64,000 nt of DNA. Origin: Clostridiaceae bacterium (lineage in GTDB: Bacteria; Bacillota; Clostridia; Lachnospirales; Lachnospiraceae). The position numbers and the translations under genes are program-made. The DNA lies in assembly GCA_910574345.1 (NCBI GenBank), contig CAJSZV010000021.1, positions 1 through 64,000 on the forward strand. The letters are read 5' to 3'. The notes below the pieces were generated by a model that was not told where the DNA came from, ran no database searches, and saw nothing but the letters and a program-made list of their open reading frames with translations. Positions 16,914-56,925 of this stretch are shown here, piece by piece; the first letter of the stretch is position 1, and each line of letters begins with the position of its first letter.

Positions 16914-16969
16914 TGAAGAGAATTCCTTTTGTCTTTCCATATCTGGTAAAAAAGAAATTATATAGGCAA

Positions 16970-17353
16970 TTATTCCATATACCCAGACATCTGCCGAATT
17001 ATCTTCACTGCTTCATGCCAAGTCATATAAGGATTGCTGCAAACCATGAGAAGTTTCACCCACCTGTCAATACCAAGAGTGAAATACCATTCTGCATAGA
17101 CCATCTCCCAATTCTCACCGTATTTCTTTTTCACATCCTCTAAGGAATCATACTCAAAAAACCGACAGATATATTTCTCGTCAATATCTGCGACTCGAAC
17201 TAAATCATGGGCTATAACAAAAGATTCCTCATCTTTATCCATGCCTCCATCTGTGGAGAAAGAATGTATCTGATAAAATTCATACAATCCCTCCTGCAGC
17301 TTCCGGCATAACCGAAGTTTATCCTCATTTCTTACTATCCATTTTTCATCCAT
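16970..17353 (-). CDS. Unknown protein, truncated paralogue of the 21659-22438 protein
   Basis: This 127-residue protein of unknown function aligns over its whole length with the first half of the 259-residue protein encoded upstream of the intact dnaE. Both read LCRKL/ICRKL, GLYEFYQIH/GLYELYQIH, VIAHDLV, an AEW block and SNPY(M/L)TW. The start is set at 17353 by GAGGAG nine bases upstream and by alignment with the paralogue; the frame is open 13 codons further. No membrane segment or known catalytic motif is visible. It has its own CATAATT element and terminator, and it precedes the dnaE remnant as its paralogue precedes dnaE. Confidence 0.75.
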   Translation of the reverse strand: MDEKWIVRNEDKLRLCRKLQEGLYEFYQIHSFSTDGGMDKDEESFVIAHDLVRVADIDEKYICRFFEYDSLEDVKKKYGENWEMVYAEWYFTLGIDRWVKLLMVCSNPYMTWHEAVKIIRQMSGYME

Positions 17354-17401
17354 AGGTTTCATCTCCTCATATTCTCTAAAGTGCCTTTGCATTTCATTCG
17401 T

Positions 17402-17408
17402 AATTATG
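17402..17408 (-). promoter_or_regulatory. CATAATT element, 49 nt before the 17353 start
   Basis: This is one of twelve such sites in the element. It reads as a -10 box without a recognisable -35. Confidence 0.55.
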
Positions 17409-17463
17409 CAGGGAGACCTTAATCCGTATCATAATAAAATCTTTATTCCATAACTACCCCTGC

Positions 17464-21468: not shown

Positions 21469-21501
21469 AGGCCATCTCCATTTCTTTTTCCTGTTCCCTA
21501 T

Positions 21502-21508
21502 AATTATG
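21502..21508 (-). promoter_or_regulatory. CATAATT element, 34 nt before dnaE
   Basis: This matches the other element promoters. Just upstream, at 21568-21583, is a GGCCGC-ATTA-GCGGCC hairpin lacking a T-run, of unknown role. Confidence 0.55.
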
Positions 21509-21658: not shown

Positions 21659-22438
21659 TTATATCCATTCTACATAATGGATAAGTTCTTCCTTCCAAGG
21701 ACTTTCTTTCCCTTCCCGGTATTCATAAGAACATTCCTTTTCTCCCCAACACTCCCTTCTCCAGTTTCCTTCACCATAAAGGTCGTCCATATACGGTTCC
21801 AGTTCTTCCTTGCAGCAAAAAAATATTATCTCATACTGATACCCGGCCTCCTTGGGAAGTCCGCAATACTGGCATATTCCAAATGGCAGGGACCGCATAT
21901 AAATCAGATCATCCATCTCTTCACCGGATTTGACCGAATAGATTTCACTTTTGTCTTCCTTTTCAATCCTTACAGATTTTGTCTCCGGGACATAGGAAAA
22001 CCGGTATCGTCCGGAAGAGTATTCCTTCTTCCTCATCATGGTATTCATGAAAAGATCGCAGGTAAAACCTGACAACTGGCAGATTAATTTTCTGGCCTTT
22101 TCCCAAGTTAAATAGGGATTACTGTTAATCATCAGAATATTGTCCCTATTGCTGGAATCAACCTCGAAATTCCATTCAGCAAGTATTCGTTCCCAGTCAT
22201 CGCCAAATTGTTCCTTCACAGCTTCTATAGAGTCAAAACCATAGAGCATGAAGACGGATTTATCAATATTCCCTGCACTCACTAAATCATGAGCGATGAC
22301 ATATACATCCGTCTCTTTGTCCGCATCTCGAAGAGGACTCATAAAATGAATCTGATACAGTTCATATAAGCCTCTCTCCAGCTTTCTGCATATCCGAAAA
22401 CGATCATTATCGGTTAATACCCATTCCTTATCTATCAT
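21659..22438 (-). CDS. Unknown protein (gene X of the X-dnaE module)
   Basis: This is a 259-residue soluble protein, not recognised. The N-terminal half is shared with the 127-residue paralogue next to the dnaE remnant. The C-terminal half is unique and contains a CQYCGLPKEAGYQYEIIFFCC segment, whose paired cysteines could bind zinc, and a very acidic, aromatic-rich tail. A GAGGAG site lies before the ATG, and a CATAATT element is 48 nt upstream. Its duplication together with dnaE suggests a role linked to the polymerase or to element replication, but this is inference. Confidence 0.75.
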   Translation of the reverse strand: MIDKEWVLTDNDRFRICRKLERGLYELYQIHFMSPLRDADKETDVYVIAHDLVSAGNIDKSVFMLYGFDSIEAVKEQFGDDWERILAEWNFEVDSSNRDNILMINSNPYLTWEKARKLICQLSGFTCDLFMNTMMRKKEYSSGRYRFSYVPETKSVRIEKEDKSEIYSVKSGEEMDDLIYMRSLPFGICQYCGLPKEAGYQYEIIFFCCKEELEPYMDDLYGEGNWRRECWGEKECSYEYREGKESPWKEELIHYVEWI

Positions 22439-22485: not shown

Positions 22486-22492
22486 AATTATG
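22486..22492 (-). promoter_or_regulatory. CATAATT element, 48 nt before the 22438 start
   Basis: This is the same heptamer in the same orientation as the other element promoters, with no clear -35. Confidence 0.55.
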
Positions 22493-22656: not shown

Positions 22657-23169
22657 TTACCTGCCTTCCATAAGCTGTCTCGCAATTTCTTTCAGTTCTT
22701 TTTCGGATTTAACGTTTAACACAAAATCCAAATCCCAGCTTTTTGTTCTGGTAAATAAAATCTCCTTTAAATGGACATTTTCACGCTTGGATAATAGAAA
22801 GTCCTTTATCTCAAAATAAGAAGCATGCTCCACGTCAAACTCTGTTTTGGATTCTGTGCTGCCATTGGAGATATTCTCTTTTTGCGGTTGTTCTTCCATC
22901 TTACCTTTGCCGTCACCCAATATCTGCCCTGCGTTTTTCTGTATAAATTTAGGCGCTGTTCCCACAGAAACAGGCAGAATTTCCTTCATATTCTGCCCCT
23001 CTGTTTTCGGAGGTTCCATGGGCGGCGGCGGAGCCATATGCTGTACAGCCGGAATCGTTCCGGATAACATAGCCCTTACCAATGACAGCATAGCGTCATC
23101 CGCATCCTCAATTACAATCACCAGACGCCTCCCGTCCTGAAATGCCCTCATATTTTTGATCTTATCCAT
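22657..23169 (-). CDS. Unknown 170-residue protein
   Basis: This protein is not recognised. It has a folded-looking start (GRRLVIVIEDADDAMLSLVRAML), a low-complexity middle rich in Pro, Gln, Lys and Glu that includes APPPPMEPP, and a C-terminal domain (EVEH-like helix, then WDLDFVLNVKSEKELKEIARQLMEG). The two-domain layout with a flexible linker suggests an adaptor rather than an enzyme. AGAAGGAG precedes the ATG. The 5' leader of about 115 nt after the CATAATT element carries an 8-bp hairpin. Confidence 0.7.
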   Translation of the reverse strand: MDKIKNMRAFQDGRRLVIVIEDADDAMLSLVRAMLSGTIPAVQHMAPPPPMEPPKTEGQNMKEILPVSVGTAPKFIQKNAGQILGDGKGKMEEQPQKENISNGSTESKTEFDVEHASYFEIKDFLLSKRENVHLKEILFTRTKSWDLDFVLNVKSEKELKEIARQLMEGR

Positions 23170-23282: not shown

Positions 23283-23289
23283 AATTATG
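23283..23289 (-). promoter_or_regulatory. CATAATT element, 114 nt before the 23169 start
   Basis: This has the longest leader of the set. TGCATAATT is shared with several other sites. Confidence 0.5.
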
Positions 23290-23359: not shown

Positions 23360-24682
23360 TTACGCTCTTTCTTCTCCATATTCTATTCCAAAGTCACCTT
23401 GCCGCGCCGCATACTGGTCAAAGCCATCACACCTTCCATTTTCCAAACAGACTTCTCCTGGTCCTTGGTCGCCTCCCATAAGCCGTCCATTTTCATCCAA
23501 AGGATGTACCATCGGTTTCATATCTTGTATAAACTCCTTATAGGATTCTTTGCAAAATTCATCATGAGCAAACTGATTATAAAGGCCCAACTCCTTCTCT
23601 TGTTCCTGGTTAAGCCTAAGAGCATGAACCATCTGCTGGACATTTCCATAAAAAATCCCATCATAGCTGACAGAATAATACGCAGAATCCGGATTGATAC
23701 AATCATTCATGAACGTAATCGGCTTATGAAACAGGCTGCTATTTATCGTTACATAATCATGGGGTCTCATCTGATTCAAATTTTTTCTCTCGATCTCCCA
23801 TACGACTCCATCCATTCTAATCTCTTTTTTATCATGAATTCGTATCATTTCTTCGCCGGAGAAAAATGCATTAACCCTTCCCCTATCGTCCCGTCCAATA
23901 TAACCAATGACCTGATCCGGCAAGAGCCTGTTATTCTTAATAACCGGTTCTCCGGACGTCTGGCACAAAACGATTCCTCGGCAGCCTTTATAACTCTCAA
24001 AAACAATATTCTTTAACAGATAGGGAAAACTCCTGGCATTTAATTCCGTGGCTGTATAAGAAAGTTGCGGTTCTCCCCATTCTCCTGCCCCCTGGCTGTT
24101 TACAATCAGTCCATTTGCGGCAATATCGGAAAGCAGCCCTGAATCCTGGGCAATTCCTGTCCTATGAATCCACAAGGTTTTATGGCTTCTTTGGGCCTCC
24201 TGAAAAGCGGCTTCCAACACTCTCCCTATCTTTTCCGGAATTCCAATCCCCGCCTTCCTGCACTGCTGTTCATAGTCCTTTCTCTGCCGGATAGCCCCGT
24301 CTGAGGGGCATAGTTCATTGGGAATATGATACCAGCCATCTCCACGGACTCCGTCACGATATATCCGTTCCATTAATATACGATAGTGAATTTCCTTCCC
24401 ATTGTCCCCCAGAACATATGGCGCATTGGCTCCCCACTTTCTCTTCCATACAGATTCCAGCTCATCCTTTTTCCGTTCCAGAGAAGGTTTTCGGAATCTA
24501 TCAATCACTGCCATAATTCCTGCCTCACGAAAAATACGAAAAGAGCGCCGGCCCTGTAACCGGTCACATCTCTCCCGAATCATTGAAATTTTCCTACCAA
24601 CTGATTCCAAACCATCACACATCTGCTTCGTATTATACCCATATTGCCCAACAGCCTTATTAAAGTTCTCCAACACCACCAT
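23360..24682 (-). CDS. Unknown 440-residue protein
   Basis: This protein is not recognised. The N-terminal 100 residues are basic and helical (RKISMIRERCDRLQGRRSFRIFREAG). The middle has KTLWIHRTGIAQDSGLLSDIAANGL and later LLKNIVFESYKGCRGIVLCQ, which vaguely recalls ADP-ribosyltransferase-like folds; the resemblance is too thin to call. The C-terminal 150 residues are acidic and aromatic. There is no signal peptide or membrane segment. GGAGG lies eight bases before the ATG, overlapping a palindrome next to a CATAATT element. It is the largest of the unknown early genes of the element. Confidence 0.7.
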   Translation of the reverse strand: MVVLENFNKAVGQYGYNTKQMCDGLESVGRKISMIRERCDRLQGRRSFRIFREAGIMAVIDRFRKPSLERKKDELESVWKRKWGANAPYVLGDNGKEIHYRILMERIYRDGVRGDGWYHIPNELCPSDGAIRQRKDYEQQCRKAGIGIPEKIGRVLEAAFQEAQRSHKTLWIHRTGIAQDSGLLSDIAANGLIVNSQGAGEWGEPQLSYTATELNARSFPYLLKNIVFESYKGCRGIVLCQTSGEPVIKNNRLLPDQVIGYIGRDDRGRVNAFFSGEEMIRIHDKKEIRMDGVVWEIERKNLNQMRPHDYVTINSSLFHKPITFMNDCINPDSAYYSVSYDGIFYGNVQQMVHALRLNQEQEKELGLYNQFAHDEFCKESYKEFIQDMKPMVHPLDENGRLMGGDQGPGEVCLENGRCDGFDQYAARQGDFGIEYGEERA

Positions 24683-24690: not shown

Positions 24691-24711
24691 CCTCCAGTTG
24701 GAGGAATTATG
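24691..24711 (-). promoter_or_regulatory. CATAATT element plus CCTCCAGTTGGAGG palindrome
   Basis: CATAATT (24705-24711) is followed directly by a 14-bp palindrome (24691-24704) that contains the ribosome-binding site of the 440-residue gene. If CATAAT is a -10, transcription starts inside the palindrome. It would then be more likely an operator than an mRNA hairpin. Confidence 0.5.
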
Positions 24712-26704: not shown

Positions 26705-26920
26705 TTAATCATCTTCCAAACCCTCCAACTCACCGTCTTCTTCTAATTTCTCATATGCTTCTTTTGCAGAAATTTCCGCATTCTGCAGCTGGTTCAGGAC
26801 ATCAAATAAGTATTGTGAACTAGAACCAATAAGATGGCCTATCTCATCCGCAGCATATTTTGTTTGTGTAGCAAGTTCTTCTACCTCTTTGAGATTCTCC
26901 CACAGTCCCTTTTTTGTCAT
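26705..26920 (-). CDS. Unknown 71-residue acidic protein
   Basis: This is a short helical protein (LWENLKEVEELATQTKYAADEIGHLIG) with a strongly acidic tail (EKLEEDGELEGLEDD). The ATG at 26920 is supported by GGAGG/GGGGAG just upstream and by a CATAATT element 39 nt away; the open frame further upstream has no support. Small acidic helical proteins in mobile elements can be DNA mimics or inhibitors, but nothing here shows that. Confidence 0.65.
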   Translation of the reverse strand: MTKKGLWENLKEVEELATQTKYAADEIGHLIGSSSQYLFDVLNQLQNAEISAKEAYEKLEEDGELEGLEDD

Positions 26921-26958: not shown

Positions 26959-26965
26959 AATTATG
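26959..26965 (-). promoter_or_regulatory. CATAATT element, 39 nt before the 26920 start
   Basis: This lies between the terminator at 26983-27013 and the gene, as at the other sites. Confidence 0.55.
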
Positions 26966-28321: not shown

Positions 28322-29143
28322 CTATGCCGCCTCCAGCAGTTCCTCCGTATAGGTTCCTGGCCCCCAGATTTCATCAGCCAGTTCACAAAGGGGATCAAAG
28401 GTGTCCGTATAAAATCCCCAGCAGGAATCACATTCCTCCCACTGTCCATCCTCACTCTGCCTTTCCTCAATATAGCCGTAAGCCTCACCCTGCAGGTACA
28501 TGTTATACATCTTCACCTCCGCCCTCATGTCCTGCTCTGCCATCCGAATCCATTCCTTTTTGGTCTGTTTCCCCAGCCTTGCCGCCTTTACCCGGTCAAT
28601 GGTGGTCCAGATGATTCCCACCTGTCCGCTGTCCCACGGGTCTCCAAAATCTGCGCAGCTCATACTCAGTCCGCTGTGGTCATAAAGATACAGGGGAAGG
28701 ATCACCAGATTATCATTGGATATCTTTTGAAGATCGTTCAGGGTAATGCCGGCAATCAGGTCGTCTTCTAAAAACTCCACATCCGGGTTTGCGCAGAACA
28801 GACCGTATTCCCGTTTTCCCAGAAAACAATACGCTCCCCATATTTCCCACTGTCTTTCCTTACGGTTGTAGGTAAGCTCAATATTGGCTTTCCCCGTCTT
28901 CACATAAGAGCGTATCCGTTTCATGGAAATTCCCAGTTCCTGAATGACTGCCCTTTTTAATCCGTCCATGTCCTGATACTTAGTTCTGTCCCCCAGGCCA
29001 TACCTTGAGTGCATGCAGAACATAGTCCCAATGTTGCCGTCCATATCCGTTCTGGGATTCCAGGGGAACTCATCCGGTTCCACATGCATACGGAAAATCC
29101 TTTGTTTATCATCCTTGTAATACCGGTACTCATGGTGTTCCAT
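28322..29143 (-). CDS. Unknown 273-residue mobile-element protein
   Basis: No catalytic domain is recognised. The motif YDHSGLSMSCADFGDPWDSGQVG is distinctive and, from memory, occurs in proteins of unknown function carried by phages and conjugative elements of gut bacteria. The C-terminal half is acidic and aromatic (GFYTDTFDPLCELADEIWG). The ATG at 29143 follows AGAGGAT, and the frame is open seven codons further. It heads the operon with the 85-residue and DUF932 genes. Confidence 0.7.
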   Translation of the reverse strand: MEHHEYRYYKDDKQRIFRMHVEPDEFPWNPRTDMDGNIGTMFCMHSRYGLGDRTKYQDMDGLKRAVIQELGISMKRIRSYVKTGKANIELTYNRKERQWEIWGAYCFLGKREYGLFCANPDVEFLEDDLIAGITLNDLQKISNDNLVILPLYLYDHSGLSMSCADFGDPWDSGQVGIIWTTIDRVKAARLGKQTKKEWIRMAEQDMRAEVKMYNMYLQGEAYGYIEERQSEDGQWEECDSCWGFYTDTFDPLCELADEIWGPGTYTEELLEAA

Positions 29144-29186
29144 TGTTATCCTCTTCTCTCCCATTTCTTATTGGTTTTTCCAATAT

Positions 29187-29194
29187 AATTATTG
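29187..29194 (-). promoter_or_regulatory. CAATAATT, variant of the CATAATT element
   Basis: This lies 44 nt before the 29143 start, the same position as the other elements. It is the only variant among twelve. Confidence 0.4.
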
Positions 29195-29226
29195 CGGTAC
29201 ATGACAGGCCATAATAAAAGAACGCG

Positions 29227-29275
29227 AAAAAAGGAGCCGCCTGTCGGTTCAATTTCCCGGCAAGGCGGCTCCTCT
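29227..29275 (-). terminator. Strong intrinsic terminator after the adhesin operon
   Basis: AGGAGCCGCCT pairs with AGGCGGCTCCT, with further inner pairing CCGG/CCG, and is followed by TTTTTT on the minus strand, directly after the stop of the membrane protein. Confidence 0.88.
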
Positions 29276-42920: not shown

Positions 42921-42946
42921 AAGACATTACCTCCTTTTCAAAAAAC

Positions 42947-42958
42947 GAATATATGTTC
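42947..42958. promoter_or_regulatory. Second, imperfect LexA-type box
   Basis: GAATATATGTTC differs from the palindrome by one base. It lies 36 bp from the first box, in the leader just before the ribosome-binding site. Confidence 0.6.
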
Positions 42959-42975
42959 TGTTTTTCTATAAATTC

Positions 42976-43004: not shown

Positions 43005-43014
43005 GAGCCATTTT

Positions 43015-45627
43015 TTACAAAACAGAACCACCGCCCGGCTGATCATTCGGGTTCGTACTAATCACCCTGTACAGCAAATTTCCATGGGGAAATTTATTGA
43101 TAAAAGGCACGATGGCCTTCCCACTGTAAATCAGTCCCTGGCCGGAATCCGCGTTTTTAATATAATTCAGCTGGGCCTCCGAGATATGCAGCATGGCCCC
43201 GATCTCATTCCGATCCTCATTGGACTGATTTAACATCAGGATAAACGGACTGTTATTGATAATCCCCCTGGATTCCCGGTTCATCAAAAGATCTTCGATA
43301 TTCTGGGTAATCCCGGTGGGAACCCCTCCATACTTACGAAACTGCTTCCACATATACATAAGGAACCTTGCGCAGCTCTCCGACTGGGTAAGGACATACA
43401 GCTCATCAATGTAAATCCAGGTGCGGATTCCCCTTGCTTTATTGGCGATGGTCCGGTTCCAGATATCGTTCAGACACACCTGCATTCCCATCTCATTCAT
43501 GCCTGTGCCGATATCCCGGATATCATACACCACAAACCGGTTGTTGGTATCCACGTTTGTCTGGAAGGCAAAGGTATTGTAGGAACCCACACAATATTTC
43601 TCTATGGCCAGCCGGATATATTCCGCCTCCGGCTCCGGCTGCTTTTTTAACAGCAGGTAAAAATCCTGAAACGTAGGCGACCTCTCACGGTCACAGGTCC
43701 TATCGATTCCCTTCTGCCTCAGCCTGTCCATATGAGTCAGGTAAGGCTCATACAGAATCCTGACACACCGGTCAATAACGGAAATCTGAACCGGGTTCAG
43801 CCCCATATGGCCTCCAATGGCATTTTCACAGATGGAACAGATATAATCGGATTTCACGGTCACCGGATCATCGCTTGTTTTATCCTTGCTGATATCCATA
43901 TCAAAGGGATTGATGTGGGTGTCTGAGCCCGGAGCGATCCGGATCACCTGCCCTCCTAAAGATTCACATAAGGGGCGGTACTCAGCCTGGGGATCAATGA
44001 CAAAGATCTCATTCTTGTCACTGGAGAGAAAAACCTGGGTCATCTCCAGCTTGGCGCTGAAGGATTTCCCCGATCCCGGCATGCCGAGTATCAACCCGTT
44101 TGAGTTCTGCCCCCTGAGCCTGTTGATCATAATCAGGTTCCGGCTTGTGGCGTTTACACCGTAATAGTTCCCTCCGGCCTGCACAAGCTCCTGTGACTCA
44201 AACGGGATAAAAAGGGCGGCTGCCTCCGTGTTCATCAGCCGGTTCGCCCAGATTTTGTTGCTTCCCAGGGGAAGACAGGACTGAAAGCCCCTCTCCTGCT
44301 GGGAATTCAGCTTCATGAGAGTACATAAATGCTTTTCCGCATTATTCTGGGCCATCTTTGTGTATTTGTCCAGATCCTCCATATCATCCGCAAAGACAGT
44401 CACCACAACCGACATGAGGATGGTCTTCTGGTCCCGCACCGTAATATCATCATAGGCCTTATCCGCGTCCTTTTTCGACTGCATAAGATCCGGCGACACC
44501 AGGTCCGCCCCCAGCCCTGCCTTTGCCGCCCGCTTGGCAGCCTCCGCCATGTTGCGGTTGATCTCCAACATCTGATTTCTCACCAGCTTGATGGCCTCAT
44601 CCTGACGCATAGGAGAAAAATGGACGCTGGTAATGGCATTACAGGGAATATTGGCAATATCCGTCAGCACCTCCGCCGAAAGCTGGGTGGGAAGGTTTTT
44701 CAGGAACAAGGAGCGCCCAAACGTATCTCCCAGACGGAAATGGTCATTTTCAAAAGTCATAGAGCTGGGGCCGATCATATCCTTGGTGGTAAGCCCCAGT
44801 TGGTGCATCCACTCAATATCAAAGGACCGGGCCTCATTGCCGTCAATATTCATCTTCTTAAAAAAAGGAACCTCCGTATCCTGATTGTAAATATTATAAA
44901 GCACCTCCAGCCTCTCCTGCAGTTCCATAGGGTCTGTGGAAGCCTCATTGATGGCCTTAATCCTGGCTGACACCTCCCCGTCAATCCGGGAAAAGGTTCC
45001 GAAAGCCGTCTCAATATTCTCCGCCTTTACAGATACCACCAGATACTTTTCCTGGACAATGTTGCTCTGCCCCTCACTGATCTTGGAAAGCAGCACCTGG
45101 TTTAAATCTTTCCGCAGGCCGTTATACACATCATCTTGTTCCGCAAACAGGGTCTCCTCCTTAAACCTTTCCTTATCAATGCTCCGGTTAAAGATCACTA
45201 GCTGGGGCCGCATGTCTGGGGAAAAGTAGTTCAGCAGATCCCCGTAGGCGAAGTACATCTCATCCTGGGCTTCCTGGGTGGTGGTGCGGAAATTGGCGTC
45301 CGTAAGGCGGTAGCTCTTGGTAAAGATCCCCTCCTCCGGTTCCATCATACCGTTCATATATACCCGTTTATAGGGAATCGACTGCTGGACGGTCTTCGGC
45401 ACCTGAATCGACCGAATACGGTTCTGCTTTGTCTTCTTCGTTCGTTTTGCTTTGTCTCTGTCCAGACTTTTTTCTTTTGGCTCCTTCTTTTTATCAAACT
45501 CCATCTTTCCCACATCACCGGAAAAATCCTGAATCTGTTTGTCAATATCCGTACCGGCCTTTGGTGAGCTGGCCTTGCTGATTTCTGTCACATCTCTTCC
45601 TGGCTGACGTCTTTTTGGTCCAAACAT
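43015..45627 (-). CDS. VirB4-type conjugation ATPase
   Basis: This 870-residue VirB4/TraE/TcpF-like motor ATPase of a type IV secretion system has Walker A GLILGMPGSGKSFSAK, an IYIDELYVL Walker B and the later QNIEDLL motif. It works at the inner face of the membrane to drive assembly of the conjugation channel and DNA transfer. The charged N-terminal 85 residues are Lys-rich. The ATG at 45627 is chosen because GGAGAGGAGG lies just upstream; the frame is open eight codons further to a TTG. It follows the PrgI gene by 16 bp. A coupling protein (VirD4) is not in the window. Confidence 0.93.
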   Translation of the reverse strand: MFGPKRRQPGRDVTEISKASSPKAGTDIDKQIQDFSGDVGKMEFDKKKEPKEKSLDRDKAKRTKKTKQNRIRSIQVPKTVQQSIPYKRVYMNGMMEPEEGIFTKSYRLTDANFRTTTQEAQDEMYFAYGDLLNYFSPDMRPQLVIFNRSIDKERFKEETLFAEQDDVYNGLRKDLNQVLLSKISEGQSNIVQEKYLVVSVKAENIETAFGTFSRIDGEVSARIKAINEASTDPMELQERLEVLYNIYNQDTEVPFFKKMNIDGNEARSFDIEWMHQLGLTTKDMIGPSSMTFENDHFRLGDTFGRSLFLKNLPTQLSAEVLTDIANIPCNAITSVHFSPMRQDEAIKLVRNQMLEINRNMAEAAKRAAKAGLGADLVSPDLMQSKKDADKAYDDITVRDQKTILMSVVVTVFADDMEDLDKYTKMAQNNAEKHLCTLMKLNSQQERGFQSCLPLGSNKIWANRLMNTEAAALFIPFESQELVQAGGNYYGVNATSRNLIMINRLRGQNSNGLILGMPGSGKSFSAKLEMTQVFLSSDKNEIFVIDPQAEYRPLCESLGGQVIRIAPGSDTHINPFDMDISKDKTSDDPVTVKSDYICSICENAIGGHMGLNPVQISVIDRCVRILYEPYLTHMDRLRQKGIDRTCDRERSPTFQDFYLLLKKQPEPEAEYIRLAIEKYCVGSYNTFAFQTNVDTNNRFVVYDIRDIGTGMNEMGMQVCLNDIWNRTIANKARGIRTWIYIDELYVLTQSESCARFLMYMWKQFRKYGGVPTGITQNIEDLLMNRESRGIINNSPFILMLNQSNEDRNEIGAMLHISEAQLNYIKNADSGQGLIYSGKAIVPFINKFPHGNLLYRVISTNPNDQPGGGSVL

Positions 45628-48152: not shown

Positions 48153-48563
48153 TTAAGAGAGGATTCCCAATCCCTTCATCACGCTTGGCATGGCAATCAA
48201 TACGCAGCCGGAGATCAGCTTTCCCAAGGCTCCGTTCATAGACTCGGCCTCCCCGTCTTTTCTGGCCGTTACATAACCATAGATTCCCCATACCAGCATT
48301 CCGATTCCCACCAGCCTTGAGATCCAGAACGCAAGGTTTAAGATCATGGATTCCGGATTAAAATTGGTGGTATCCGCAATGGTATAGGTTTTGTTTAACC
48401 CTGACATGGCAAATGCATTGATCCGGCACATTCCATAAGTCATACAGGCCGTAGCCATCATCACTGCCTTCTTTGCCATATCCCTTCCCTTTGTAAAGGA
48501 GTTCAAAAGTTTTTCCTTTCCTGAACATACTTTCTCTTTTTTTGATACTGCAACAATTCGCAT
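48153..48563 (-). CDS. Maff2 family conjugation membrane protein
   Basis: This 136-residue protein starts at 48563 (AAGGAGG seven bases upstream). It has a basic N-terminal segment, a hydrophobic signal-like helix (KKAVMMATACMTYGMC), an extracellular loop, then two transmembrane helices around the conserved GIYGYVTARKDGEAESMNGALGKLI block. Maff2 proteins occur in the conjugation modules of Clostridia, between VirD4 and TrbL-like genes. It begins the main transfer transcript, 73 nt after a CATAATT element. Confidence 0.87.
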   Translation of the reverse strand: MRIVAVSKKEKVCSGKEKLLNSFTKGRDMAKKAVMMATACMTYGMCRINAFAMSGLNKTYTIADTTNFNPESMILNLAFWISRLVGIGMLVWGIYGYVTARKDGEAESMNGALGKLISGCVLIAMPSVMKGLGILS

Positions 48564-48635: not shown

Positions 48636-48642
48636 AATTATG
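48636..48642 (-). promoter_or_regulatory. CATAATT element, 73 nt before the Maff2 gene
   Basis: The heptamer precedes the first gene of the conjugation block, so the transfer genes fall in the same promoter class as dnaE and the adhesins. Confidence 0.55.
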
Positions 48643-48720: not shown

Positions 48721-48975
48721 TCAGCAAAACTGCGTGCATTGTCTGAGCGTATCCTGAAGCAGCGTTTCCACCTCTTCCTGTTCTTCTGTAAGCACTCTGT
48801 CTGGATTGGATTCCAGTATCCAGATGATAAACTCATAATTTTCAACCGGGTCCTTCACCAGCTCCATGGCCTCATCCCAGTCCGGATACCATTCCGTAAG
48901 GGGATGTCCATTATCCACGATCCGTTCCAGCATGGCATGAAACTTCTCATGGGAGATCTTCTTGATTTCTTCCAT
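48721..48975 (-). CDS. Unknown 84-residue acidic protein
   Basis: This small helical acidic protein is not recognised (FHAMLERIVDNGHPLTEWYPDWDEAMELV, then LTEEQEEVETLLQDTLRQC). It starts at 48975 after AGGAAAG. Its leader holds an AAGGAG-GGA-CTCCTT hairpin (49002-49016) whose ribosome-binding site faces a tiny MGT frame, so translation may be modulated. It has its own CATAATT element 74 nt upstream. Confidence 0.65.
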   Translation of the reverse strand: MEEIKKISHEKFHAMLERIVDNGHPLTEWYPDWDEAMELVKDPVENYEFIIWILESNPDRVLTEEQEEVETLLQDTLRQCTQFC

Positions 48976-49048: not shown

Positions 49049-49055
49049 AATTATG
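49049..49055 (-). promoter_or_regulatory. CATAATT element, 74 nt before the 48975 start
   Basis: It lies about 30 bp after the primase terminator. Confidence 0.55.
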
Positions 49056-49084: not shown

Positions 49085-49114
49085 AAAAAAGTAGCAGGTC
49101 AAAGGACCTGCTGC
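49085..49114 (-). terminator. Terminator overlapping the end of the primase gene
   Basis: GCAGCAGGTC-loop-GACCTGCTAC is followed by six T on the minus strand. The primase stop codon (49099-49101) lies in the loop, so the last codons form the 5' arm of the stem. Confidence 0.8.
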
Positions 49115-50154
49115 ATAAGGATATCAATAAGCTCTCCTGTGTCTTTTGTATGTCTGGCCAGAAACATATGGGCCGGCAGGGCCTGTTCGATCCGCTTTCT
49201 AAACTCATCCATTCCCATAGGATCTTCTCTGATCAGTTCATCCGGGTCTTTGTATGGGCTGAAATCCAAAACCTTAACCGAAAGCCCCGCTTTTCTTAAA
49301 AGATCAATGGACTTTTTCGCCCCATGGATTCCGGCCTCATCACTGTCCATGGACAAAAATACTTCCTTGTATCTGGCCGCAATCAGCCTTGCATGCTCTT
49401 CGGTAAGGGCCGTGCCCAGCACCGCGGCTGAATCACGGAAGCCTGCACGGTGTAGCGCTATGTAGTCCAGATACCCCTCACAGAGAATCAGCGCCTGTCC
49501 CCTGATATCTCCCATGTAGGGAAACCCGTAGAGATTTCTCCGCTTGCTGAAAAGCTCCGTCTCCGGTGAATTCAGATATTTCGGCCTGGAATCATCAAGC
49601 ACTCTTCCGCCAAAGGCAATCACATCACCGTTCTCATCCATAATCGGAAACATGACCCGGTTGCGGAAGAAATCATAAGGGTATCCTCTGGCACTTAATT
49701 TAAACAAGCCGGAAGCCATCAGCTCCCCATGGCGATACCGCCTTTTCAGCCGGCTGTACAGAACAGAAAAGCCGTCCGGCGCAAACCCAAGCCCGTACTC
49801 CCGAATGCCATCCAGAGTAATTCCCCGACTGGCAAGATACTGTCGGCCTGGGTGCTCCGCCTTTATTAGTTCCGTGTAATAAAAATAGGCGGTATCCTCA
49901 TAAATCTGCAGAAGAACCGGATTTTTCTGACAGGTAACCATGGCATACTTGTTCGGTTCCAGCCTTGCCAGGAAATCTTTCTTATCACCAGAGGCACCGC
50001 AGGCATAACAGAAAAAAATTCCTTTCCGGTCATCCGCCATAAAAGTATCCGTCCTCCCGTGACAAAAAGGGCAGCTTCCAAAATACTTTCCGGATACCGG
50101 ATCGCGGGTTACTTTTGTATAACGGGAAACAAGTTCACTGATTGTTTCGTACAT
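49099..50154 (-). CDS. DnaG-like DNA primase, short form
   Basis: This 351-residue primase has a CHC2-type zinc ribbon (Cys28, Cys31/His32, Cys49, Cys52 in SCPFCHGRTDTF...FFCYACGASGD), the RNA polymerase-like catalytic domain (GYPYDFFRNRVMFPI, AFGGR) and a Toprim domain (ALILCEGYLDYIALHRAG, LSMDSDEAG). The C-terminal helicase-binding domain of chromosomal DnaG (about 600 residues) is missing, as in many phage and plasmid primases. The ATG at 50154 follows AAGGAAGG and a CATAATT element; the upstream TTG at 50193 lacks support. With the element's DnaE it would form a partly self-sufficient replication set. Confidence 0.9.
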   Translation of the reverse strand: MYETISELVSRYTKVTRDPVSGKYFGSCPFCHGRTDTFMADDRKGIFFCYACGASGDKKDFLARLEPNKYAMVTCQKNPVLLQIYEDTAYFYYTELIKAEHPGRQYLASRGITLDGIREYGLGFAPDGFSVLYSRLKRRYRHGELMASGLFKLSARGYPYDFFRNRVMFPIMDENGDVIAFGGRVLDDSRPKYLNSPETELFSKRRNLYGFPYMGDIRGQALILCEGYLDYIALHRAGFRDSAAVLGTALTEEHARLIAARYKEVFLSMDSDEAGIHGAKKSIDLLRKAGLSVKVLDFSPYKDPDELIREDPMGMDEFRKRIEQALPAHMFLARHTKDTGELIDILMQQVL

Positions 50155-50194: not shown

Positions 50195-50201
50195 AATTAT
50201 G
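50195..50201 (-). promoter_or_regulatory. CATAATT element, 41 nt before the primase gene
   Basis: The string GCATAATTC is shared with the adhesin site. Confidence 0.55.
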
Positions 50202-50301: not shown

Positions 50302-53300
50302 TTAATTTATCTTTTTAGTTGCAACCTTTCCATTTTCTATCCACTGCCCCTTTTCATTGACCGTATACCCGTCTGGTGTTTTTGTGGATTTATAGAGGCG
50401 GCCTCTGTAGCCGTTGGACTCTGTTTCAAAATAGTAGCATTCTGCAATTCCATCACCATTATCATCAATCCAGTTCCATCCAGTATACATATGCCCCAGG
50501 GTGTTGTCCGAAATGGGGTGCAGATAATAGGTATCCCCTGCCTTGTCCGTATACCAGCCAACGGTCATAACCGAATCTTTTCCGAAGTGAAACCAGTCGA
50601 ACAAAGGCTGTCCTTTGCTTTTATCTGCGTATGGATTCTGGACAGCTGCCCACTCATCGGTGTAGGTGCGCTCATTGGAATAAAACCAGTTCCCGGCAGA
50701 ATCCTGTACCCAGGTTCCTCCCTTCACCACATAGGAGGGAAGTCCCAAAGCGGTCGCGGTTTTATTCCCACTTGGTGTCGTGGACCGGGAGGAAGAACCG
50801 CCGCCTCCGCCGCTGCTGCTTCCCCGTCCGCCGCCTCCGCCAGAACTGGGGGTATAGGTATTGTCAACATACTTCACGTTTAACTTCACATTACACTGGT
50901 CAGCCATGCGCCCGTCCTCGGAAGTCCCGGTGATCACGATGGTTCTCCCGGTCACCTGTGGATTTGCCTTGGTCCAAGGGTGTTTGACTGCCTCTTTGAG
51001 CAGGCTGGAAGCGCTGCCTGTAAAACCGCTACCGTTCATGGACGCAGGCAGCACCAGGCGGATATTTCCATCCTTGTCAACTGTCAGAACCGAATTGTCC
51101 CCAGATGAGAACACAACCTTGTTCTCCTCTTTTCTGGAAGAGTGGATTGTTCCGTGAACCTTTGTATTCACCGTACCCGTCACCGTATAAACCGGGGCAG
51201 ACCGGCTCCCGGTGGCTGTGACAGTCACATCCATGGTCTTGGCATTTTCAGACAGCTCCACATTTTCATACTGGAAATTCAAAACCACGTTACAGCTGTC
51301 CTTCAGGGTCTTCTCCTCATTTTGGACATGGACTGCCACCTTTTTCTGTCCGGAATATTTCCCTTCAGCCACAATCCCTTTCTGCCACTCGGCATTGACT
51401 ACCGGAAGAATATTTCCGGCCTCATCCACGGTCAGAAGCTTCCCGTCTTCTGATGACCAGTATGGCCTGTTATTCTTCCCTGCCTCTACAAAGACCTTGG
51501 CATTCAGCTTCCTGCTGCCGTTTCCGCTCCACTTAACAGAAGGCTGATTGGTTCGGGAGGTCTGAGTGAGAACCAGATTGTAGATCTCTTCGTTCCGGTC
51601 AAGGATTGCCTGATCATAGCGGAAATTCACCGTCACCTGGCAGCTGTCAGCCGTTGCTCCCGTGTGGGGGTGTCTGGCCGTAATGATAACCGTCCTGGTT
51701 CCGCTGTGGACATCGGTTTTGTAGTCCTTCGCGTTGTCCATGATTTCTTTCATCCAGGAATCTTTCTTTACATACACCCTTCCGTCTGCGTCAACCGTTG
51801 CCACAGACTCATCGGAGCTTTCCCAGACCGGTGTAACATCTTTCCCGTTCTCATCAGAGATACGCGCCTTTAGCTGGATATAGTGGTCTCCTGTCCAGTG
51901 GGATTTTACGGAGTTGGTTCTGGAATCCTGGGTACAGACCACATCAAAGGTCTCCTCATGGGATTCCAGGACTGCCTTATCGTAGCGGAAATGGATGGAT
52001 ACCTTATAACTGTCAGACATGGATTTTCCGTCAATCTCCTTTTTGGCCGTCAGGATTCCGCTTACGGTGCCGTTTACTTTCCCGGAAGAAATCAGCTCCT
52101 CCCAATGTCCTTTCACGGGCACCAGACAGCCGTTTTCCACTTTGCAGTAGTCTTTGATGGTGCCGCTCAGTTCATAAACCCCGTCATTTTCCTTTACTCC
52201 GTTTTTGGTGTATGTGGTATTTTCCAGCTTCACAATGCCGTAAGACCATTTCCTGGTTCCCGGATTATTCATGCTGTAATTTCCCTGGGTCACTACCACA
52301 TTCATATCGATCTGCCGGTCTTTCACGGAGGTCTTCTTTATATCATAAGTATTTTCCGGTGTCTCAGATGTAATTACGGAAGGAGAAGGAACATAGCCTT
52401 CCGGCAAATCGGAGACAGGGGAGGCTGTCAGATCTACCCCGTCATAGCGGAAATGGATGGTGACAGGAATCTCTGCAACAGAAGCGCCTTTGGTGGTTTT
52501 CGCCTTGATAACGGCCTCATGCTTTCCGCTGTTTGAGGATGCCCGGTTCTTTATGATCTCTTTAATCCAGGCAGCGTCCGCCTTCACGGAAACCATTCCC
52601 CTTGCAACCCCATTATCCGTTTCTATGTCCGTCAGGGAGATAACCGGATGGTCCGCTGCTGCTCCTGTCTTGTCATAAATAGAAAAATTCGGGGATTCAC
52701 TGGTGCCGGTGGCCTTCGCGCTTATCTTCCTGGCCTCTGTTCCGCTCCAGCTTTCCTTCTCTGCCACGTCTGTCCCGGAAAGTCCGGCTGCCGCCTCTTT
52801 TGTCAGGACGATATCAAAATCTATTCCTTTTTCCATATTGCTGCTCATGGAGGCGGCTGTGAAGGTCACCTCAATGGGCTTTGTCTGAACCAGGCTGTTG
52901 TCTCTGGCTGATGTTGTCACAACCAAAATCTTAGCCGTAACTCCGTCTAAATTCCCCTTGGAAATCTGATCCTGAACCCAGGGAGAATATCCGGGGTCGG
53001 CTGAGTCTTTGCTGTCCCCATATCCTCTGACCGTAATCGTTCCGGTGGCGGAATCAATATCCAGCACGTCATAGGGATTTAAGTTAGGCTGTCCGGTGAC
53101 ATCCCCGTTTGCCAGGGACCATACCACGTTCTTGTCATATGGCTGGTAGGCTGACTGGCTGTTATCCTTTTCCGGCAGGACTTTGGCCGTAAAGGTCTCC
53201 CCTTGACCTTCAATCACCTGAGTATTGGCACCATCCTTTACATAGATGTCATGGGATTTTACCTGAGATCCGGAGTTGCCCTCAAAAGTGTAAATGATAT

Positions 53301-56300
53301 GGTATCCATGCATATTGTTGACATGGTTGATTGGTGTTCCGTTTACGGAAAACCCGCCAGTGAGTTTAAGTTCTTCCGGCATAATCTCCGTCCTATCTAC
53401 GGTCTTAAAATTCACCTGGACCCGACAGGTATCTGTGGCAGAGTGGTTGTTGGTATCCTCGCCGGTCACCTTCACATAGGTTTCATAGGTACTCAGGGTA
53501 TCCGGCACTGCCTTTAGCTGGCTGGTATACTGTTCATCCTGGGCCTTCACAATCCCTGCAATCATGGCATTAGAACAGGCTGTGGCGGTCATGCCTTTTA
53601 ATGTGACATTTCCATGATAATACGCCTTGTCCCCGGTTCCCGACACCGCTACCTGGATGGTGCCGTCATCAAAGGTATTCTTATCCGCTGCCACTGCCGT
53701 ATGTTTGTCTTCCTCAAAGTCAGCTTCCTCCCCTGGCCTGGACAGATACCAGGACACCTGGCTGCCTGAGAAATAGTCCGGGTGAAACGCAGCGCTTAAA
53801 TCAGATACGGTGGTACTTCCCTCATCCGGCACTTTTCCGTTTACCGTATAGGACACGGTTGGGTTTGCCCTGCTGCCCCTTAAGGTTCGTACTACCTCAT
53901 AGGTAATGCTGTTTCTGGAAAGAGACACACCATTCAGAGAGACATTAGTATTGTCTTTTACATGGAATTTGATGTCAATGTCCGCATAGCCTTTGGGCGG
54001 GTTCTGCTGGTCTTCTGAATCTGTAGTCTGGGCGATGGCAGTGATTACGGAATGGTACCAGTAGGGCTGGCTGGTGGTCATACTGTCCTTGTAGCCGCCA
54101 TCTCTTTGGGACTTGGCTAATTCCTCCGCTTTTGCTGCCAGGGCAGAATCCTCAAGGTTTAAGGTAAAATAAGCCTTTTTCGCGTTGGTAAGCCCTTCTC
54201 CCGGTGTGGTGTTGCTGATGATTCCATGGTTTTTATCATTCCCGGTCTTCCAGCTTAGGTTAAACTTGTCATTATTGGAGCCGTTTACCAGAGAACCCAG
54301 CCAGAACAGCGCGTCCTCGTTCCGGGTAATCCGGCCGCTTCCATCCACAGTCATTACGGTTTTATTTTCCCATCGGTTTCCGTTAGCGTCCGTTATGATC
54401 TCCGCCCGGTCGCTGGCGTCTTTATTGCCATTGTAGGCAGTTACCTGCCACTCGATATTGGCGTTTTCCCGGCTTCCGGTCCGGATCTGGGTAACCCCAA
54501 ACACAATTTTAGCCGGATTTACGGCCACAGACTGAGATACTTTTTTATAGACCGCTCCCAGGGTCACATCCGCTTCCGGCATGGTAATGGAATAGCCGGC
54601 CCCTTTTGTCACTCCCCTGGTAGTCTCACGATCCTGATACACACGGAAGGGATCTTTTTCCCGGTAGCTGTACCAGGGATTGCTGCCCCTGGTATCATCC
54701 ATCTGGAAATACCCGGTGCCGTCCGCCATGTCCTGAAAGGAGATGTATACCACATCTCCCGGAGCAAACGCGCCAAGCTCCTGGCTGGTCACCACCGGTT
54801 TATAGGATCCGCTGATATAAGCGCTGACAGAGGCTGCCTTTGTGCCGTCTACCGTAGGGTCAACCACTGCCAAAAGATATCCTCTGGTGGGTTTCCCCTG
54901 CTTATCCGCCGTAAAATGATTGATGGTCTCTGCATGTTCTCCGGTCTTTTTGATATTGAGGATTCCTTCCTCCAGCTCTTTATAAAAATACTCCTCCATG
55001 TGGTTGATGTTCTGTCCGGATACAATGCTGTAGTAGTTATCATCCTTATGCCAGTAACCAATATGAGCCGCCCCGTCAAAAGTGCCATCATCCTCCACCC
55101 TGGAGCCGCAGATCCCCTGGTTGGCTTTTGTCGCCGTGTCGGCAAACAGGTAGGCGATATCTCCAGAAGCGCCGTAGGTAAAGCCCGCCCCGTTGACACG
55201 GGTTCCGATAAAGCACGCCTCATAATTGTTGGTGGAAGTGGGCCTCACGGTTGTCGCGGAAAACCGGCCAACTTTTATCTGTCCGCCATCGTAACCGCCC
55301 ACCAGTCCGCCTACTGCGTAAGCGTTGGAAGAGCCGATTTCCCCGTCATACACATATCCCTGATACACATCGGAATTTTCCATGATGCCCACTATACCGC
55401 CTACATAGGAGCCGTTTCCGTAGATATGATTCCCGGCTCCGGTGTTGGTGCTTACATAGGTATCCATAATGGTGGTATTGGCGGCAAAGCCTGCGATTCC
55501 TCCCACACAGGAGTGGCCGCCGCAGAACTCACTGGCTGTTTTTACCGCCTCCACCGTGTAGACAGCCGCTTTATCGGCCCGGCAGTCCTCGATAACCATG
55601 TTCCGGTCGTTTTTCTGGGTAGTGGAGGACTCGGCAAAGCCTACAATGCCGCCCACATACCCCCGGCCTTTGACAATCCCGTTTACCGTACATTCCTTAA
55701 TGGCTGCGTCAACGGCATGTCCGGCTAAAATGCCGGCATAGTCTGCCCCCTCCAGGGTGTTTCCAGAGGTACTCAGATACAGGTTGGTAATGGTGGCGCC
55801 GGAGCCCACCTCACCGAAGAATCCTACGGATCTCTGGGAACGGATATTCTGTGCCATCTCCGCCGTGATTCCCAGATTGGAATTTGCCTTAAAGCCGATA
55901 TTCTTGATGTTGGCCCCTTCTTCCGCCGCAATATGTCCTTTGAAAGCTACATACCCCTGTCCGCTGTTTCTCTGGAAGCCGATGGGAATCCAGGACCCGT
56001 TTAAGTCATAGGTGCCTCTCCGGATCAGGTAGTAGGTGTCCTCATTATAGTTGTCGCCTGCGATGGTAACCGCCAGTGTCCGCAGATCTTCCACAGAATC
56101 AATGATATAGGGAGATTCCTCTGTCCCGTTTCCGTCCTGGTAAAGATTCCCATTCATGCCGTATCCGTCCGACCACAGATTCCCCACTGCGGAAAGGGAC
56201 TGTGCCTGACGCATGGTGTGGAAAGCCATCAGGAATGAAAAAGCGTCAGAAAATTCTGCATGGGTAATCCAGTCAAAAATTACATCATTTCTGTAGGCCC

Positions 56301-56856
56301 TGATACTGCCATCCGTATCCAATGTGACTGCGTGCTCATAGAACCAGTCCCAGAATTCAGAATCTCTTGGTTCTGAATCATCAAAGGCCGGATAATGGGT
56401 TTCTGAATCGGTCATATCCTCATTTGTGATGGCTTCGTGCCAGGTTTTAAGCGTTTCCTTAAGAGTTTCCAAGGCTGCCTCGTAATCATCCTCGCTGCAG
56501 TCCCCAAGGATTTCCTCTATCAGATCATCCAGCCATTTCCAAAAGGCCTCACTTCCGAAGGACGGATAGGTGCTTTGATTCTTCTTTGGCGCTACATTGC
56601 TTGGTGTCGCTATGGTTTTTGGTGTTTCTGCTTCTCTGATTTCACTGTCCTGGATTTGTATCCCTTCATCCCCCTTTTTGGCGGCCTCTGAGGGTGTGGC
56701 TATTGGCAGGGAGCCATAGTGGACACTGCGAACCTGCTCACGCAGAGCTTCCTTTGCAAAGGCAGGGGCTGCCGGAACCATGGAGGGCATGGCCATGGAC
56801 ATGCTTAAGACTGCCACTGCAAAACGGTTCAGAGCCTTCTTATTGTTACTCTTCAT
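50302..56856 (-). CDS. Giant secreted surface protein with GLUG, Ig-like and wall-binding repeats
   Basis: This protein has 2,184 residues. The signal peptide (about 1-35, ending APAFAKEA) is followed by a helical acidic region. A GLUG-type beta-helix spans roughly residues 230-600 (GFFGEVGSGATITNLYLS, YVGGIVGFAE, YVGGIVGIME, AVGGLVGGY). A chain of bacterial Ig-like modules repeats about every 130 residues (HFRYD, a TQxSRTN block, TVDxxG, DSCxVxxNF). A Gly/Ser linker and C-terminal aromatic cell-wall-binding repeats complete it (WVQDSAGNWFY, GWYTDKAGDTYYL, GWNWID). It should attach non-covalently to the wall, in contrast to the other giant adhesin. It starts after AAAGGAG, with its own CATAATT element and terminator. 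Confidence 0.9.
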   Translation of the reverse strand: MKSNNKKALNRFAVAVLSMSMAMPSMVPAAPAFAKEALREQVRSVHYGSLPIATPSEAAKKGDEGIQIQDSEIREAETPKTIATPSNVAPKKNQSTYPSFGSEAFWKWLDDLIEEILGDCSEDDYEAALETLKETLKTWHEAITNEDMTDSETHYPAFDDSEPRDSEFWDWFYEHAVTLDTDGSIRAYRNDVIFDWITHAEFSDAFSFLMAFHTMRQAQSLSAVGNLWSDGYGMNGNLYQDGNGTEESPYIIDSVEDLRTLAVTIAGDNYNEDTYYLIRRGTYDLNGSWIPIGFQRNSGQGYVAFKGHIAAEEGANIKNIGFKANSNLGITAEMAQNIRSQRSVGFFGEVGSGATITNLYLSTSGNTLEGADYAGILAGHAVDAAIKECTVNGIVKGRGYVGGIVGFAESSTTQKNDRNMVIEDCRADKAAVYTVEAVKTASEFCGGHSCVGGIAGFAANTTIMDTYVSTNTGAGNHIYGNGSYVGGIVGIMENSDVYQGYVYDGEIGSSNAYAVGGLVGGYDGGQIKVGRFSATTVRPTSTNNYEACFIGTRVNGAGFTYGASGDIAYLFADTATKANQGICGSRVEDDGTFDGAAHIGYWHKDDNYYSIVSGQNINHMEEYFYKELEEGILNIKKTGEHAETINHFTADKQGKPTRGYLLAVVDPTVDGTKAASVSAYISGSYKPVVTSQELGAFAPGDVVYISFQDMADGTGYFQMDDTRGSNPWYSYREKDPFRVYQDRETTRGVTKGAGYSITMPEADVTLGAVYKKVSQSVAVNPAKIVFGVTQIRTGSRENANIEWQVTAYNGNKDASDRAEIITDANGNRWENKTVMTVDGSGRITRNEDALFWLGSLVNGSNNDKFNLSWKTGNDKNHGIISNTTPGEGLTNAKKAYFTLNLEDSALAAKAEELAKSQRDGGYKDSMTTSQPYWYHSVITAIAQTTDSEDQQNPPKGYADIDIKFHVKDNTNVSLNGVSLSRNSITYEVVRTLRGSRANPTVSYTVNGKVPDEGSTTVSDLSAAFHPDYFSGSQVSWYLSRPGEEADFEEDKHTAVAADKNTFDDGTIQVAVSGTGDKAYYHGNVTLKGMTATACSNAMIAGIVKAQDEQYTSQLKAVPDTLSTYETYVKVTGEDTNNHSATDTCRVQVNFKTVDRTEIMPEELKLTGGFSVNGTPINHVNNMHGYHIIYTFEGNSGSQVKSHDIYVKDGANTQVIEGQGETFTAKVLPEKDNSQSAYQPYDKNVVWSLANGDVTGQPNLNPYDVLDIDSATGTITVRGYGDSKDSADPGYSPWVQDQISKGNLDGVTAKILVVTTSARDNSLVQTKPIEVTFTAASMSSNMEKGIDFDIVLTKEAAAGLSGTDVAEKESWSGTEARKISAKATGTSESPNFSIYDKTGAAADHPVISLTDIETDNGVARGMVSVKADAAWIKEIIKNRASSNSGKHEAVIKAKTTKGASVAEIPVTIHFRYDGVDLTASPVSDLPEGYVPSPSVITSETPENTYDIKKTSVKDRQIDMNVVVTQGNYSMNNPGTRKWSYGIVKLENTTYTKNGVKENDGVYELSGTIKDYCKVENGCLVPVKGHWEELISSGKVNGTVSGILTAKKEIDGKSMSDSYKVSIHFRYDKAVLESHEETFDVVCTQDSRTNSVKSHWTGDHYIQLKARISDENGKDVTPVWESSDESVATVDADGRVYVKKDSWMKEIMDNAKDYKTDVHSGTRTVIITARHPHTGATADSCQVTVNFRYDQAILDRNEEIYNLVLTQTSRTNQPSVKWSGNGSRKLNAKVFVEAGKNNRPYWSSEDGKLLTVDEAGNILPVVNAEWQKGIVAEGKYSGQKKVAVHVQNEEKTLKDSCNVVLNFQYENVELSENAKTMDVTVTATGSRSAPVYTVTGTVNTKVHGTIHSSRKEENKVVFSSGDNSVLTVDKDGNIRLVLPASMNGSGFTGSASSLLKEAVKHPWTKANPQVTGRTIVITGTSEDGRMADQCNVKLNVKYVDNTYTPSSGGGGGRGSSSGGGGGSSSRSTTPSGNKTATALGLPSYVVKGGTWVQDSAGNWFYSNERTYTDEWAAVQNPYADKSKGQPLFDWFHFGKDSVMTVGWYTDKAGDTYYLHPISDNTLGHMYTGWNWIDDNGDGIAECYYFETESNGYRGRLYKSTKTPDGYTVNEKGQWIENGKVATKKIN

Positions 56857-56891
56857 CTTGTTTTTAATCTCCTTTCCTACTGCTTCCCACT

Positions 56892-56898
56892 AATTATG
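56892..56898 (-). promoter_or_regulatory. CATAATT element, 36 nt before the 2,184-residue gene
   Basis: This is the rightmost member of the CATAATT set seen in the window. Confidence 0.55.
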
Positions 56899-56925
56899 CA
56901 GTGAAAGGAAATAAGATTGGTAAAA

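Follow-up and report, generated by a model that had tools for sequence, protein, structure and literature searches.

The closest described systems to the promoters treated here come from a phage, from conjugative transposons and from laboratory mutants of Escherichia coli. The promoters belong to an element at about 16.9-57 kb of the window, by which we mean the whole analysed stretch of 64,000 nucleotides; it is part of a 75,188-base contig (C21) in the 5.6 Mb genome of a Clostridiaceae bacterium. The heptamer CATAATT stands before genes of this element, and sister elements in other genomes have the word CCATACTT together with a sigma factor gene. Genomes are labelled G and contigs C, G000 being the window's own genome.

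The late promoters of bacteriophage T4, read by gp55 with gp33 and gp45, are alike in that a mobile genome provides a dedicated factor of the sigma family for a -10 word without a conserved -35 (PMC2988020). They differ in that gp55 resembles sigma domain 2, is activated by the clamp and belongs to a lytic phage, whereas the factor of the sister elements has regions 2, 3 and 4 and belongs to a conjugative element; its region 4 sets it apart from gp55-like factors of the domain 2 type. The conjugative transposons of Clostridioides difficile are alike in being elements of Clostridia which encode sigma-like proteins, and it was asked in 2011 whether these proteins bind promoters inside the element (PLoS One 2011, PMC3158075). 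Their likeness to sigma factors is described as lying in a helix-turn-helix which binds the -35, as in TcdR, and the available part of that paper ties no promoter set to them. In E. coli sigma-70 a change at residue 440 or 437 (Q437H, T440I) suppresses a T to C change at promoter position -12 (PMC2613000), the position which both residues face (PMC2613000; PMC8321222). These are laboratory mutants with H or I, whereas the element sigma has R at 440 and further changes at 433, 438, 441 and in the -35 helix.

Among titles and openings of abstracts, in a coverage which mostly leaves out subscription journals, we found no matching account of either word, of elements or plasmids with their own sigma factor, or of large elements in Lachnospiraceae. 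Phages are known to carry sigma factors of their own. It is near certain that CATAATT marks a genuine promoter class which is conserved, spans the element and relies on a -10 alone, and we consider it quite probable that this class is explained by a dedicated pair of element sigma factor and -10 word which diverges together with the element.

Placement and conservation of CATAATT

The element carries dnaE, a DnaG-type primase gene, a DUF932 gene, genes for a VirB4-like ATPase and PrgI, and genes for two giant proteins of 3541 and 2184 amino acids (aa). There are 18 CATAATT in the window, of which 11 are on the minus strand and 7 on the plus strand. The mean of shuffled windows is 14.56, and 21 of 100 shuffles reach 18; since the total is ordinary, frequency alone proves nothing, and the raw count was rejected as evidence for lack of enrichment. 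The original prediction had expected two to three sites per strand in 40 kb by chance, a figure which the shuffle mean raises to about four to five. The minus-strand sites, all within 17402-56898, are the following, with the position of the exact counterpart in contig C22 of the related genome G536.

17402-17408, minus strand: before the gene of a 127-aa protein (16970-17353, the second copy of X); the paired G536 site at 42586 precedes a different gene.
21502-21508, minus strand: 33 nt before dnaE (start 21468); exact at 38370, flanks nearly identical.
22486-22492, minus strand: before X (21659-22438, 259 aa); exact at 37385, flanks diverged.
23283-23289, minus strand: before 22657-23169 (170 aa); exact at 36529.
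24705-24711, minus strand: before 23360-24682 (440 aa), T-run upstream; exact at 35107.
26959-26965, minus strand: before 26705-26920 (71 aa), near the DUF932 gene, T-run upstream; exact at 33381.
41331-41337, minus strand: before the gene of the 3541-aa giant protein (30662-41287); exact at 19010, flanks strongly diverged.
48636-48642, minus strand: before the pilin-like gene 48153-48563, ahead of transfer genes; exact at 10740.
49049-49055, minus strand: 73 nt before the open reading frame 48721-48975 (84 aa), T-run upstream; exact at 10325.
50195-50201, minus strand: before the DnaG-type primase gene (49099-50154); exact at 9107, and also before the primase remnant at G015 C17 20441.
56892-56898, minus strand: before the gene of the 2184-aa giant protein (50302-56856), T-run upstream; exact at 2422, flanks nearly identical.

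Nine of these 11 sites lie at most 125 nt upstream of minus-strand starts called by the script. The chance of at least nine is about 1e-9, the 125-nt windows before called minus-strand starts making up 2628 of 40101 positions. The remaining two precede the 84-aa frame and dnaE; for the latter the script placed the start upstream of the motif, and the dnaE start of the orthologous element is called downstream of it. The distance from site to frame is 22-113 nt across all 11, so that the 11 exact sites which had been described before start codons are all borne out; a single variant site described with them was not identified. Four of the seven plus-strand sites are inside the element, at least 5 kb from the nearest plus-strand gene start.

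When words were counted in 28 upstream regions (the element part of C21 together with C46, another contig of G000), CATAATT ranked first, with 11 regions against 0.42 expected. The same count in 256 host upstream regions gave TATAAT, with 70 against 18 expected. In 360 kb of host sequence, sampled as 18 slices from C1-C4, there are 53 CATAATT, of which 9 are mostly intergenic and 4 of these at most 150 nt upstream of a gene on the same strand; before host genes the word is rare. On C37 and C42, two other contigs of the same genome which carry VirB4, all 8 CATAATT are inside called genes.

Relatives of the VirB4-like protein were found in an uncultured Lachnospiraceae metagenome-assembled genome (MAG) at 97% identity, in two Clostridiaceae MAGs at 58-59% (three contigs), and as a fragment in a Hungatella MAG at 89%. 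The 97% relative is on G536 C22, where the element is present and most of its proteins share 65-98% identity. All 10 upstream regions of C21 and G536 C22 which could be paired by ortholog have the heptamer without a mismatch. The flanks are clearly diverged for the 3541-aa gene, the primase gene, 23360, 22657, X and the pilin-like gene; the pairs at the 2184-aa gene and dnaE say little because their flanks are nearly identical. A primase remnant on G015 C17 (77% identical) also retains CATAATT upstream. On C46 there are nine minus-strand CATAATT, five of them before called genes (chance of at least five 3e-4); of the other four, two precede frames of 72 and 129 aa, one is inside a gene and one precedes a frame which ends after 11 codons near the contig end.

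The Hungatella locus (G538) is 5.5 kb long and is counted with the CATAATT lineage solely through its broken VirB4 gene; it has two CATAATT on the strand opposite to the VirB4 match, with no gene assigned to either. CATAATT was also counted on more distant VirB4 contigs: G202 C14 (26% G+C) has 21 CATAATT, three of them intergenic and 70-123 nt before genes, and G193 C8 (31% G+C) has 30, few of them before genes, composition clouding the meaning of both counts; the two sites in a slice of G071 are inside genes.

Promoter anatomy and the word of the sister elements

The anatomy was studied at 24 CATAATT sites (11 on C21, 8 on C46, 2 each on C36 and C60, and 1 in G536), with 73 host TATAAT sites as a positive control. 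Host SigA promoters (TTGACA-N17-TATAAT) are alike in the geometry of the -10 and in the distance to the start, and differ in having T at -12 and, often, a -35. A match of at least 4/6 to TTGACA with a spacer of 16-18 nt was found at 48% of the host sites against 14% in shuffled sequence, at 17% of the CATAATT sites against 13%, and at 10% of 71 CATACT sites of the sister elements against 11% (73 sites before near-duplicates were dropped, some of them surely chance occurrences). The absence of a shared -35, as originally proposed, is thereby confirmed for TTGACA-like matches. The TG of an extended -10 is present at 0 of 24, 2 of 71 and 15 of 73 sites, respectively, for CATAATT, CATACT and host TATAAT. 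The CATAATT class thus has neither the T at -12 nor the -35 or TGn of host SigA promoters.

A purine is found at the expected +1 at 92% of the CATAATT sites and 92% of the CATACT sites against 71% of the host sites, and a pyrimidine-purine step at the start at 67%, 76% and 48%. Among 19 aligned CATAATT sites there is a purine at +12 from the C, mostly preceded by a pyrimidine, which fits a start point 7 nt past the -10 hexamer, as expected for one. It should be noted that A at -11 and T at -7 hold by the choice of sites, and that the word itself topped an unselected count; likewise, C at -12 is present in the top-ranked unselected words, and at all 24 and 71 sites by selection. Column statistics and inspection by eye of the 19 sites gave no convincing shared upstream motif and no prominent hexamer. 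Biased columns before the heptamer are -22 (C), -8/-7 (T, C) and -3/-2 (pyrimidine). Judged by these features CATAATT behaves as a -10 element of the sigma-70 type. The proposed element-wide, -10-like class accordingly stands: it fronts genes for replication (dnaE, primase), both giant-protein genes and the transfer genes, the last through a weak match to a type IV secretion system (T4SS) pilin.

In the sister elements, whose VirB4 is about 59% identical, unselected word counts yield CATACTT or CCATACTT in place of CATAATT. The octamer CCATACTT is present in 14 of 46 upstream regions of G537 C32 (0.04 expected), CCATACT in 8 of 27 regions of G015 C27 (0.11 expected) and in 4 of 20 of G537 C49, and CATACTT in 4 of 32 regions of G015 C3 and 3 of 15 of G537 C41. 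On the whole of contig G537 C4, where most element genes are on the plus strand, there are 23 CATACTT upstream of plus-strand genes, none on the opposite strand and none in about 66 kb of flanks; under a looser rule the contig has 31 sites, of which one is flanking and two are on the other strand. Both counts omit the promoter of the sigma gene described below, a promoter with C as its last base or with an overlap to a called frame. Genome G015 comes from the genus of the window's host. It has a remnant with CATAATT (C17, two sites before genes) as well as an element with CCATACT (C27), which argues that the word follows the element and not the host. In the window itself (16901-57000) CATACTT is absent from the transcribed strand and occurs 8 times on the opposite strand.

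A sigma factor in the sister elements and the rival explanations

A search with PF04542 found a sigma factor gene in the middle of the element on G537 C4, on the opposite strand. Within the five genomes searched it has orthologs on G537 C30 (75% identical) and G015 C59 (56%), the other long matches being ordinary sigma factors at 33% or less, and it is confined to the two genomes with CCATACTT elements. Sigma70 regions 2, 3 and 4 of Pfam are recognised in all three orthologs, region 3 below the cut-off in two. The gene sits among genes of the same promoter class, and each of the three copies has CATACTC 45-51 nt upstream, which suggests autoregulation. In plasmid and phage collections the protein has 365 and 233 matching records, all below 60% identity, with the 30 listed for each collection not exceeding about 35%.

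The three proteins differ from host SigA in the two regions which matter here. Region 2.4 reads WWIRQAITR in the host and QWIQQEIRD, QWILQEIRD and YWILQEIRD in the elements; the -35 helix of region 4.2 reads TRERIRQ in the host and SAESCRR, SPESCRR and SIEGCRQ. In E. coli sigma-70 numbering, derived from the motif, all three keep Q437 and have R for T440, with the further changes at 433, 438 and 441 mentioned above, and both host SigA proteins retain Q437 and T440. A changed residue 440 beside C at -12, and a changed -35 helix beside the absence of a -35, form a mutually consistent correlation.

On the reading of a dedicated pair, the element-encoded sigma-70 family factor would replace host SigA on the host core RNA polymerase. 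The resulting holoenzyme would recognise C at -12 along with the remaining bases of the heptamer, without canonical contact to a -35, and transcription would begin at a pyrimidine-purine step some 7 nt further downstream. Sigma factor and -10 word would diverge together, giving CATAATT in the lineage of the window and CCATACTT in the sisters. The sister sigma factor would be under its own promoter class, and since its gene is preceded by such a promoter positive feedback is expected. A subset of the sister promoters has, in addition, a phased upstream sequence (TATCYGCRGAA) which resembles an activator site. The sister sigma factor probably reads CCATACTT; a related factor would read CATAATT. 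The argument is carried by the conservation of the heptamer and by the change of word in the sister elements. It is likely that the CATAATT class is read through an element-encoded specificity factor, and that this factor is a sigma-70 relative in the window's lineage is probable but unproven. The original prediction of an element-encoded sigma factor or activator thus holds in part: the sigma-70 family gene with a promoter of its class was found in sister elements only, and not in G000, G536 or G538.

The wider proposal is that a family of conjugative elements in gut Clostridia, with sizes reaching about 150 kb, has for each lineage a dedicated sigma factor and a matching -10 word which change together, so that two elements in one cell would be insulated from the host and from each other; here we regard the chances as evenly balanced. 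If true, the elements offer a natural pair of sigma/promoter specificities. A promoter set, a lineage-specific word and a candidate sigma factor together make the question asked of the C. difficile proteins (PMC3158075) testable. CATAATT can also serve as a sequence mark for such elements in fragmented assemblies; C46, C36 and C60 were found in this way.

Several points weigh against a dedicated pair. The most serious is that no ortholog of the sigma factor was found in the assemblies of G000, G536 and G538, the first two of which carry CATAATT elements. Hidden Markov models of the element sigma factors gave nothing above threshold in the fetched contigs of G000 and G536 (best E 0.4), and PF04542 has 20 places in G000, none of them on C21, C46, C36 or C60. 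In G537 C4 the sigma gene lies between the 463-aa gene and dnaE; the corresponding interval is assembled in both C21 and G536 C22 and lacks it. No sigma factor was recognised among the window's element proteins scanned with Pfam and, for 10 proteins each, with NCBIfam and PHROGs, a scan which leaves out the two giant proteins. This does not prove absence because the assemblies are incomplete, and the CATAATT lineage may have a divergent sigma factor, a relocated one, or an activator which works with SigA. Further, CATACTT is not among the top words of the stretch 185,001-226,841 of G537 C4, which is partly flank, nor CATAATT among those of G015 C17. The argument from T440R leans on E. coli suppressors with another residue (I), and the start signature is one of sequence only, the starts being predicted. 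Finally, C is found in 58% of the 19 sites at a single biased upstream column 34 nt before the predicted start, so that a weak upstream contact may exist.

The strongest rival is that host SigA reads CATAATT with the help of an element-encoded activator of the class II type, whose upstream binding stands in for the -35 contact. Activator-dependent SigA-type promoters without a -35 are well known, and the missing sigma factor of the CATAATT lineage as well as the C-biased column agree with such an arrangement. So does the sequence TATCYGCRGAA, which with one mismatch occurs 139 times in six contigs of the CCATACTT type, in 30 cases with CATACT at most 60 nt downstream. The spacing is phased, 31-33 nt in 21 of the 30 (33 nt in 17, 32 nt in 3, 31 nt in 1), 38 nt in 5 and elsewhere in 4, and the centre lies near -40. 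Allowing two mismatches, 20 of 71 CATACT sites have it (shuffled mean 1.8, largest 7), and it looks like a putative activator site at a subset of the sister promoters. This sequence does not account for the entire class of the window: only 1 of 23 CATAATT sites has it (shuffled mean 0.6), 2 of its 38 occurrences in five CATAATT-type contigs precede CATAATT, both at 34 nt, and no other shared upstream motif was seen. In addition, SigA disfavours C at -12, the residues Q437 and T440 are intact in both host SigA proteins, and an activator alone leaves the change of -10 word between lineages unexplained. We consider this explanation unlikely.

That CATAATT is an operator or an RNA element of the 5' leader, and no promoter at all, is very improbable. 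The heptamer is exact in all 10 orthologous leaders, and four of the 11 sites (24705, 26959, 49049, 56892) have a T-run at most 75 nt upstream. To the eye these T-runs look like intrinsic terminators, which would leave little space for other promoters at those sites. Against it speak the purine and the pyrimidine-purine step at the spacing of a -10 and the lack of any other shared promoter sequence upstream. About as improbable is a host alternative sigma factor, e.g. the sporulation factors SigE, SigK or SigG, which would tie the element to sporulation. The -10 words of these factors do begin with CAT, those of the mother-cell factors being of the CATA type, and G000 has homologs which by eye are SigE-, SigF- and SigG-like; but there is no strongly conserved -35 in the 19 sites, elements of one host genus have two words, both present in G015, and host genes seldom have the heptamer upstream. 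It is hardly credible that coincidence, or the shared descent of duplicated leaders, explains the class, for although the window total is ordinary and the two X genes are paralogs, otherwise dissimilar leaders share the heptamer, the sister elements substitute a different word, and the non-random placement together with conservation through divergence in G536 already argues strongly against it.

Extent of the element and neighbouring genes

The VirB4-like ATPase, PrgI and the pilin-like gene, by which conjugative elements of the CD1110-type VirB4 group are known, are all present in the element, the T4SS pilin match of 48153-48563 being weak and below the Pfam cut-off. No relaxase, coupling protein or element end was recognised among the proteins scanned on C21 and C46. 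On G537 C4 a 727-aa membrane protein, by eye a coupling protein, has its sole match among the compared contigs of G000 and G536 on C42. C46 carries an actin-like and a RecJ-like gene. Homologs of genes on C21, C36 and C46 are found together on the single contig G537 C4, and for this reason the three are taken as one element family; we infer that C21 and C46 belong to one physical copy. C36 and C60 (L128, L147) contain segments of related copies of the element whose CATAATT leaders match, and G000 therefore probably has more than one such element.

Searches outside the family returned little. The 440-aa protein was found in 1 of 397 genomes, its own, and had no relatives, nor had a 286-aa protein; the primase search gave mostly long frames resembling chromosomal dnaG. 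IMG/VR contained no relatives of VirB4, the 634-aa C46 protein, the actin-like protein or the sigma factor. Four IMG/VR matches to DUF932 were rejected: the one listed gene by gene (L190) looks different and phage-like, and neither heptamer is among the top words of any of the four.

The gene 42609-42920 (103 aa, no Pfam or PHROGs family) has a TTGACA-N17-TATAAT promoter within 42921-43020 (minus strand), overlapped by a LexA-like box, GAACAAATGTTCG, which is followed by a second similar box; on G536 C22 the first box is identical and the second similar. An SOS signal might reach the element by way of this promoter. In place of CATAATT, the region before the 273-aa gene (28322-29143), at 29144-29270 (minus strand), has a hairpin-like stretch which includes a T-run and, after it, CAATAATTATATTGG, which is conserved and dyad-like.

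At 1-16 kb the window contains metabolic genes, host or cargo, which adjoin the element, among them a gene for sigma-54 (RpoN-type; 2352-3716, minus strand). The open reading frame 16352-16777 (minus strand) resembles the C-terminal part of the element's dnaE (68% to G536), and the sequence before it is similar to that upstream of a C36 gene; by these resemblances it is a rearranged fragment at the edge of the element. At the other side, 56981-59968 (minus strand) codes for a 995-aa NB-ARC/TPR protein with TATAAT upstream instead of CATAATT, and a distant relative of this protein is encoded on C46.

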